From Eubacteriales bacterium (lineage in GTDB: Bacteria > Bacillota > Clostridia > Tissierellales > Dethiosulfatibacteraceae): a DNA stretch of 55,159 nucleotides. Under the pieces are notes generated by a model, which made no database searches, was not told the origin of the DNA, and saw only the letters and a list, made by a program, of their open reading frames with translations. Location: positions 1 to 55,159 of the forward strand of contig JAUYTY010000176.1 in NCBI GenBank assembly GCA_030694905.1, read 5' to 3'. This document shows, in pieces, positions 40,282 to 54,549 of the stretch (positions are counted from its first letter, which is position 1; each line of letters starts with the position of its first letter). A program made the position numbers and the translations under genes.

Positions 40282-41040
40282 CTAAATGGTCCATTCACTG
40301 TGGACGATGCCCACTAGATACCAAACCCCGTTGTCATTTTCGAAGACAAGCGTCAGACTTCTCCAATCAATCCCTTCGTATTGAGGATCAAATCCAGTGA
40401 AATGAAACTCCACAAAAGCATGATTCGAGTAGACATCTGATATGTTATTGATTGTATTGCCTGTTCCGATGGTTTGATTGATGCCAATCATATGGGGATT
40501 GGCAAAATCCTGGTCATAGACAAAGCGATCATAATAATCAGAAAATGTGAGTTCTATGGGTTCGCCACTGCCATCGTAGCTTCCCCATGTATACTCCGCT
40601 GTATCATTGAAAAGATTGACTAAAGCATTTCCTGTGAAAAACAGCATGTCATCATCCTCATGCACATAGGTATAGGGAGAGAATCTGACTCCCTTGGTAG
40701 GACTTATAAAAGCATTTAGTTTTACGATGTCGTATTCGGCGATGATTTCTATGACATTCAGTGCTTCCGTTAAAAGGGAGTTGCCCTGCACGGGTTCAGA
40801 AATCAATAAACTAGCCTCGAAATCGCTGATCGTCTTTTCCCTGTCCTTCACTTCCAATCTCAGATCGTTGATTGTCTCGCTGTATTCCATAAGCTTTGAT
40901 TCAAGCGCTTGAGTCTTATTTCTTTCGGCGCTCAATTCTTTTCTGAGCTGGCTGATGTTCTCGTCTGTATTGGCTACACATCCGGTCAGAACCAATACAG
41001 CAATCAGTAAAAATAATAGTATTGTTTGCTTTAACTTCAT
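40282..41040 (-). CDS. coiled-coil lipoprotein of unknown function
   Basis: 252 residues from ATG 41040, which has GAGGG upstream; a longer reading from 41061 is less likely. Lipobox LTGC follows the signal helix. Residues ~28-75 form a heptad-rich coiled coil (ISQLRKELSAERNKTQALES...). The remainder is a globular domain with SPTKGVRFSPYTYV and a tail ending WRSLTLVFENDNGVWYLVG, similar in style to lipoproteins with an NTF2-like or Cpn-type extracellular fold, but I do not assign a family. It should be held at the outer face of the membrane by its lipid anchor, with the coiled coil as a spacer. Confidence 0.72.
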   Translation of the reverse strand: MKLKQTILLFLLIAVLVLTGCVANTDENISQLRKELSAERNKTQALESKLMEYSETINDLRLEVKDREKTISDFEASLLISEPVQGNSLLTEALNVIEIIAEYDIVKLNAFISPTKGVRFSPYTYVHEDDDMLFFTGNALVNLFNDTAEYTWGSYDGSGEPIELTFSDYYDRFVYDQDFANPHMIGINQTIGTGNTINNISDVYSNHAFVEFHFTGFDPQYEGIDWRSLTLVFENDNGVWYLVGIVHSEWTI

Positions 41041-41107
41041 AGTAACCCTCTTTTTAAGCAATAATACTTATTATACCATTTATATAAAAATAATAAACAA
41101 ATAATAA

Positions 41108-41138
41108 ACAAAAAAATGACCCCGTAAATCGGAGTCAT
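41108..41138 (-). terminator. terminator of the 49-residue protein gene
   Basis: On the minus strand, ATGACTCCG (41138-41130) pairs with CGGGGTCAT (41124-41116), followed by TTTTTTTG. Confidence 0.85.
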
Positions 41139-41148
41139 GTTGGATTAT

Positions 41149-41298
41149 CTATTTATGGTTTTCATCAACCCAGAGCTTTGATTCAACTACGGCTTCCTCT
41201 GAAGGCTTTGTAACGCAAGTGTCTGCGTCATATGTGGTAGGTGTTGCCCATGCTTCAGGAGGGTTGGCTCCCACCAATTTGTTACGAATAGTTTTCAT
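41149..41298 (-). CDS. 49-residue protein behind a Fur-box promoter
   Basis: Start ATG 41298-41296 with AAGGAAGTG about 7 nt upstream, stop TAG at 41151-41149. The product begins MKTIRNKLVGANPPEAW and contains TYDADTCVTKPSEEAV before ending LWVDENHK; one Cys, acidic, no signal peptide or membrane helix. It has its own promoter, a Fur-like operator and a terminator, so it is a genuine gene rather than a chance frame. The NPPEAW...CVTKPSEEAV pattern reminds me of small clostridial spore-surface proteins (the CDIF630_02480 type), from memory and unverified. A modified-peptide precursor is another option, but no maturation enzyme is adjacent. Confidence 0.72.
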   Translation of the reverse strand: MKTIRNKLVGANPPEAWATPTTYDADTCVTKPSEEAVVESKLWVDENHK

Positions 41299-41343
41299 TT
41301 GTTTCACTTCCTTAACAACATTATTATTGAATTATATTAATTT

Positions 41344-41372
41344 ATTATACACTAAATGATAATGATTGTCAA
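41344..41372 (-). promoter_or_regulatory. promoter with overlapping Fur-like box
   Basis: On the minus strand, TTGACA (41372-41367), a 17-nt spacer and TATAAT (41349-41344) form a perfect sigma-A promoter, 46 nt before the ATG. TGATAATGATTGTCA (41357-41371, plus-strand reading) is a 7-1-7 palindrome with one mismatch to the Fur/PerR type TGATAATnATTATCA. It overlaps the -35 box and spacer, where a repressor would block polymerase. Confidence 0.75.
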
Positions 41373-41464
41373 ATAGAACATTGTATCAAAAAATGTCATT
41401 TGTTCGAACTTGAAATCTTATAAGAAATATAATAAGATACACCTATGATTTTAGGAGGTAGAGG

Positions 41465-41926
41465 ATGAGCATAGAAACGGTAAAAAAACAATTTGCTGAT
41501 GAAAATTTGCCGCTGGAGGTGATTGAGATGGATACCTCAACGGCGACAGTCGAATTGGCGGCACAGGCCTTAGGTGTCGAGCCGGCCCGAATTGCCAAGA
41601 CCATGGCAATCAGGTTGAAGGAAAAGGATATTCTGTTGCTGGCTAAGGGAGATGTGAAGCTGGACAATCGAAAATTCAAGGACACATTCAAGGAAAAAGC
41701 GAAATTTATCGGGCTTGAGGAAGTGGAAGAAGCCACGGGTCATCCAGTAGGTGGTGTTTGCCCATTTGGACTTAGCAAGCCACTGGATATCTATCTGGAT
41801 GAATCTCTAAAGGTATTTGACCATGTGTTCCCTGCGGGGGGAGGAGGCAACACAGCCGTTAAAATCGATGTGGATTATCTGGCTGAGGTGACCAAAGCCA
41901 CATGGGTGGATGTCTGCAAGGGTTAA
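41465..41926 (+). CDS. YbaK/EbsC-type aminoacyl-tRNA deacylase
   Basis: 153 residues, preceded by AGGAGG. Family motifs: TATVELAAQALGVEPARIAKT near the N-terminus, LLLAKGDVKLDNRKFK with the catalytic Lys region, and HPVGGVCPFGL, the conserved substrate-loop segment of YbaK/ProX domains. Members hydrolyse mischarged tRNAs such as Cys-tRNA(Pro). The N-terminus has the SIETVKKQF helix typical of the EbsC branch. Monocistronic, with TATAAT-like sequence upstream. Exact tRNA substrate unknown. Confidence 0.9.
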   Translation: MSIETVKKQFADENLPLEVIEMDTSTATVELAAQALGVEPARIAKTMAIRLKEKDILLLAKGDVKLDNRKFKDTFKEKAKFIGLEEVEEATGHPVGGVCPFGLSKPLDIYLDESLKVFDHVFPAGGGGNTAVKIDVDYLAEVTKATWVDVCKG

Positions 41927-48487: not shown

Positions 48488-48521
48488 ATTATACAATAAG
48501 CACGAATGATAATCAATGTCA
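48488..48521 (-). promoter_or_regulatory. promoter with Fur-like box, cytochrome b5-like gene
   Basis: On the minus strand, TTGATT (48516-48511), 17-nt spacer and TATAAT (48493-48488). TGATAATCAATGTCA (48507-48521) matches TGATAATnATTATCA at 13 of 15 positions and overlaps the -35 box, in the same arrangement as the 41344-41372 promoter. Confidence 0.62.
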
Positions 48522-54489: not shown

Positions 54490-54516
54490 AATGATGAATG
54501 ACATATTTTATTAAGA

Positions 54517-54529
54517 GATAATAATTATC
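54517..54529. promoter_or_regulatory. perfect Fur-type palindrome
   Basis: GATAATAATTATC is an exact 6-1-6 inverted repeat and equals the core Fur hexamer arrangement. It lies 64 nt before the -10 box (TATAAT, 54581-54586) and about 140 nt before the start codon of the secreted-protein gene. Confidence 0.6.
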
Positions 54530-54549
54530 AAAAACATCTTATAAACAGC

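Follow-up and report, generated by a model that had tools for sequence, protein, structure and literature searches.

A PF12655 gene behind a sigma-A promoter with a predicted Fur operator in an apparently non-sporulating clostridial lineage

Fur operators in Firmicutes are 7-1-7 palindromes that are known to overlap sigma-A promoters, with TGATAATNATTATCA as the Fur box consensus. Fur boxes end in TGA...TCA, and those of PerR end in TTA...TAA. In Bacillus subtilis, Fur-repressed promoters drive FbpA, FbpB, and FbpC, which are tiny basic proteins made in iron starvation. A second point of comparison is CDIF630_02480 of C. difficile, described in the passages of PMC9610443 that deal with it as a 64-residue protein that is located by proteomics in the exosporium layer, placed under SigF control by transcription studies, and conserved across the Clostridia. 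Those same passages do not contain the word "iron." In the main text of a paper on C. difficile Fur (PMC6311696), 02480, CD630_2245, CD630_2246, CspC, and DUF3787 were likewise not found.

We analyzed a stretch of 55,159 nucleotides (the window) from genome G000, together with seven relatives of the same family (G001 to G007; this family is called f1 below). The earlier note on this DNA had described a complete small transcription unit, and we found all of its parts: promoter, Fur-type operator, ribosome site, 49-codon gene, and terminator (Table 1). The terminator is a 9-pair stem, 5 pairs of which are GC, followed by a T-run; it lies outside the range 41149-41372 to which the unit had been assigned.

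Table 1. Parts of the transcription unit in the window
Feature	Position	Strand	Basis or remark
Promoter TTGACA-17-TATAAT	41372..41344	-	12/12 to consensus
-35 hexamer TTGACA	41367..41372	-	unchanged across four aligned f1 members
Fur-type 7-1-7 operator TGACAATCATTATCA	41357..41371	-	covers the -35 hexamer and initial part of the spacer; 13/14 to Fur consensus; related boxes in G001, G002, G003
-10 hexamer TATAAT	41344..41349	-	sequence
Ribosome-binding site AAGGAAG	41307..41313	-	sequence
PF12655 gene, 49 codons plus stop	41149..41298	-	Pfam match, domain at residues 15-49; start ATG at 41298, stop at 41149-41151
Intrinsic terminator	41116..41138	-	stem and T-run; RNA fold

The product had been listed as having no assigned function, which needs correcting: it belongs to Pfam family PF12655 (DUF3787, "Spore surface protein CDIF630_02480"), with an E value of 3.9e-10, a score of 40 bits against a cut-off of 25, and coverage of profile columns 2-36 of 36. 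The protein is small (5.5 kDa), acidic (pI 5.1), and predicted to be soluble. Its identity to the copies in relatives is 96% in G001, 59% in G002, 39% in G003, and 51% in G005, and PF12655 relatives across the order have a C-terminal K.WVD..K motif in common. The 49-codon reading frame looks coding, with 10 silent and 2 replacement codons between G000 and G001 and 10 of these 12 changes at third positions; for the more distant G002 and G003, the silent and replacement codons number 10 versus 20 and 8 versus 31. NCBIfam and PHROGs held no family for the protein, Rfam gave no match at 40900-41600, and a PDB search returned nothing credible (one match, E 0.33). An AlphaFold2 model built from a two-sequence alignment (mean pLDDT 69), which we judged weak, suggests a beta-hairpin and a C-terminal helix that would carry the family motif.

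The exact promoter sequence TTGACA-17-TATAAT occurs once in the 55-kb window, where 22 matches with up to two mismatches were found versus 10.3 expected. The palindrome reported over the -35 box is borne out and extends into the spacer. The window holds four Fur-like sites with up to two mismatches versus 0.78 expected, and 2 of 100 shuffles reach four. This abundance is only mildly above chance and is weak evidence, so conservation in relatives had to decide, and it is the stronger evidence for the predicted operator.

The comparison covered 116 regions upstream of PF12655 genes: 5 from f1, 65 from genomes with SpoIVA, 43 from other genomes without SpoIVA matches, and 3 not classified. They comprise the 114 PF12655 places of a survey of the order, less one at a contig end and two below the cut-off, and five places in additional genomes from a second genome set, from which two below-cut-off places were dropped. 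Start codons were picked by ribosome-site score, and a small number of them (e.g., in G016, G044, G109, and G157) are uncertain.

A sigma-A promoter matching 11-12 of 12 positions together with a Fur box matching 12-13 of 14 was present in four of the five f1 regions, from two genera (G000, G001, G002, and G003); the region upstream of the G005 gene had neither. Among the other 111 regions, none reached a sigma-A score of at least 11 and one reached a Fur score of at least 12, at TAATAATAATTATGA, an AT-rich run without a strong promoter. In mononucleotide-shuffled upstream regions (n = 11,600), the Fur score was at least 12 in 147 and at least 13 in 7. Aligning the four f1 genomes gave invariant columns at 9 of 17 positions in the spacer; the flanks had 11 such columns among 68 before the -35 box and 15 among 47 after the -10 box. 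G000 and G001 are close, so these are not four independent cases, and it is G002 and G003, on the protein identities given above, that carry most weight. A divergent ybaK-type gene adjoins the PF12655 gene in G000, G001, and G003. No such neighbor was found in the 2 kb examined for G002, where the Fur box is nevertheless present; thus, the box seems tied to the small gene.

Genome-wide, the degenerate box TGAYAATNATTRTCA has three exact matches in the 2.8 Mb of G000, the PF12655 site included, where 0.13 would be expected from the base composition of the window. With up to two mismatches, G000 has 166 matches versus 41 for the reversed control; with up to one, the counts are 16 versus 0 in G001 and 12 versus 2 in G003. 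The other two exact sites in G000 precede a methyltransferase gene and a lipoprotein-like gene, and the exact sites in G001 lie ahead of genes for a flavodoxin-like reductase and for a methyltransferase resembling, by eye, that of G000. One-mismatch sites in G000 precede the genes for FeoA (58 bases before the start), an Fe/Mn superoxide dismutase, and a cytochrome-b5-like lipoprotein. We inspected sites with up to one mismatch (14 of 20 others in G000, 8 of 16 in G001, and 8 of 12 in G003). Six of the 14 in G000 lie outside open reading frames of at least 100 residues and eight lie inside (L050-L053, L056, and L058-L060), with the L056 site right where its frame begins; in G003, 6 of the 7 other inspected sites lie inside frames. 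With many pattern matches inside reading frames, not all of these sites are real.

Of the three Fur-family (PF01475) proteins encoded by G000, one is Fur-like and two are PerR-like, and none exceeds the cut-off of a named NCBIfam model. The best NCBIfam model for the Fur-like protein is the Bacillus-type Fur (164 bits versus a cut-off of 220), and its best PDB match is a Fur.

Several Fur-like sites have notable surroundings. Downstream of the PF12655 gene, the lipoprotein-like gene at 40285-41040 on the minus strand is 48% identical to a paralogue at another place in G000 (L048); neither matched a Pfam family. An exact Fur-box match begins 49 bases ahead of the start of the paralogue, and that box is set in a long inverted repeat, AAGCATACCAT...ATGGTATGCTT. 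The same inverted repeat, again with a Fur box at its center, stands before a different gene in G001 (L149), and it is perhaps a mobile or reused regulatory element. Within the window, a Fur-like site at 48507-48521 precedes a cytochrome-b5-domain lipoprotein gene and overlaps a promoter-like match, TTGATT-17-TATAAT. The nearly exact Fur box at 54516-54530, AGATAATAATTATCA, lies about 154 bases ahead of a reading frame that begins with a signal-like sequence and is truncated by the end of the contig.

Among 199 genomes of the order with a completeness of at least 90%, PF12655 is present in 98 and SpoIVA in 71. The family occurs in 52 of the 71 genomes with SpoIVA versus 46 of the 128 without, with the caveat that SpoIVA may merely be missed in some draft genomes. 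PF12655 therefore goes with sporulation, yet it is common in genomes without this marker. In f1, five of eight genomes carry PF12655, the window's own included. Spo0A_C and SpoIVA were found in none of the eight f1 genomes versus all three control relatives, at a completeness of 97-100% for G000, G001, G003, and G004 (G003 with 7% contamination) and 68-82% for G002, G005, G006, and G007. The f1 lineage is thus probably asporogenous. With the SigF model TIGR02885, seven of the eight genomes had matches of up to 179 bits, below the model's cut-off of 321, and we tentatively read these matches as other sigma factors.

Upstream regions were also searched with a strict pattern for the SigF-type -10 consensus (G.A[AG]ATA[AC]T). 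This pattern was found in 24 of 65 regions from SpoIVA-positive genomes (shuffle mean 1.5, maximum 5), in 0 of 43 other regions from SpoIVA-negative genomes, in 0 of 5 from f1, and in 1 of 3 not classified. A looser pattern gave 34, 5, 1, and 1 matches in the same four groups, against shuffle means of 8.8, 4.7, 0.7, and 0.5, and requiring a -35 element left 15, 0, 0, and 0. Since the strict pattern is unmatched in 41 of the 65 regions from SpoIVA-positive genomes, SigF control of PF12655 as a whole does not follow. A constitutive sporulation promoter, which had been raised as an alternative for the window's gene, is not what we find: the promoter is of sigma-A consensus, and neither of the markers Spo0A and SpoIVA was found. 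In 14 of 48 loci from SpoIVA-negative genomes, and in 0 of 59 from SpoIVA-positive genomes, an rlmH-type SPOUT methyltransferase gene adjoins the PF12655 gene, the loci being of differing lengths; the 14 are L136, L041, L043, and 11 others of another family of the order (f3).

What can be read directly from these genomes is the family membership, the promoter and operator anatomy, the conservation of the operator in two genera, the Fur-like protein, and the lack of Spo0A and SpoIVA matches; from this we infer Fur binding and iron induction. We consider it probable, with some confidence, that this is a PF12655 gene of an apparently non-sporulating clostridial lineage that is transcribed by sigma-A and repressed by Fur. 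Iron control is likely because the operator is kept across both genera and G000 has Fur boxes at other genes as well, and the arrangement suggests that the gene now responds to iron starvation. When iron is plentiful, Fur-Fe(II) would occupy the -35 box together with the spacer and keep polymerase out. Once iron runs short, release of Fur would allow a short single-gene mRNA to be made and translated into the soluble acidic protein, which may have a small accessory role within the vegetative cell. This state may have arisen by loss of a forespore promoter. The best reading is of a gene from a spore family that Fur-iron would repress in vegetative cells and that was kept after sporulation was lost or was never tied to sporulation.

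Binding of the operator by a PerR-like or other Fur-family regulator, with the gene answering oxidative stress such as peroxide, seems unlikely to us. PerR boxes resemble Fur boxes, and G000 encodes the two PerR-like proteins, both under the cut-offs of the PerR models, and has a similar site before superoxide dismutase; however, the box at the PF12655 gene has the TGA...TCA ends of Fur boxes rather than the TTA...TAA ends of PerR boxes, and a related site precedes feoA. Less probable again is a constitutive strong sigma-A promoter whose resemblance to a Fur site at the -35 box arose by chance. TTGACA itself contributes five bases of the box (TGACA), a part of the match that the promoter requires anyway, and shuffled windows occasionally hold as many Fur-like sites as the real one. 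The distal half-site, TTATCA, is in the spacer, however, and is invariant in the four aligned members of two genera, and the only exact match to the pattern in the 4.0 Mb of G003 is at the promoter of the PF12655 gene.

We give least credence, and very little, to the idea that the lineage sporulates by a divergent program, so that the product is still a spore protein and iron is an extra input. This would fit the member of the family reported on C. difficile spores (PMC9610443, in the passages on that protein), the higher frequency of PF12655 in SpoIVA-positive genomes, and the sub-cut-off SigF-model matches in f1. It is hard to square with Spo0A_C and SpoIVA being found in none of the eight f1 genomes and with the lack of a strict SigF -10 match in the five f1 upstream regions, one of which matches the looser pattern. 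Beyond the preferred reading of a sigma-A-transcribed, Fur-repressed gene, we offer a tentative extension, which we hold to be possible rather than probable: PF12655 could be a general family of small intracellular accessory proteins that is not primarily structural in spores, with its "spore surface" name fitting one lineage. Its members would have been plugged separately into the SigF forespore program, into an rlmH-type neighborhood in another family without SpoIVA matches, and into the Fur response to iron starvation here.

If the preferred reading is true, a family named for its location on spores also leads a vegetative life that responds to iron, in genomes without recognizable sporulation regulators. 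This would offer a route to ask about the protein's role outside spores and a case of regulatory rewiring accompanying the loss of sporulation, and calling such proteins "spore surface" proteins may mislead in the genomes of non-spore-formers. The individual parts are of known kinds. Their combination, in which a "spore surface" family gene has a conserved Fur box and its lineage gave no Spo0A or SpoIVA matches, was not found in the portions of the open literature that our search covered.

Compared through the family profile only, the window's protein shares its Pfam family with CDIF630_02480. As described in the relevant passages of PMC9610443, CDIF630_02480 has 64 residues, is SigF-regulated and spore associated, and comes from a spore-former, whereas the window's gene encodes 49 residues and has a sigma-A promoter with a Fur box, and its genome gave no match to Spo0A_C or SpoIVA. 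The likeness to FbpA, FbpB, and FbpC, by analogy, would be that of a small protein behind a predicted Fur-repressed promoter; those proteins are described as basic, whereas this one has a pI of 5.1 and belongs to PF12655, a distinction drawn from their description only. The feoA site of G000 is not placed on the TTGACA hexamer in the way that the box at the PF12655 gene is. From the overlaps of Fur operators with sigma-A promoters known in Firmicutes, the mechanism proposed here would not differ, and the unusual part is the target gene.
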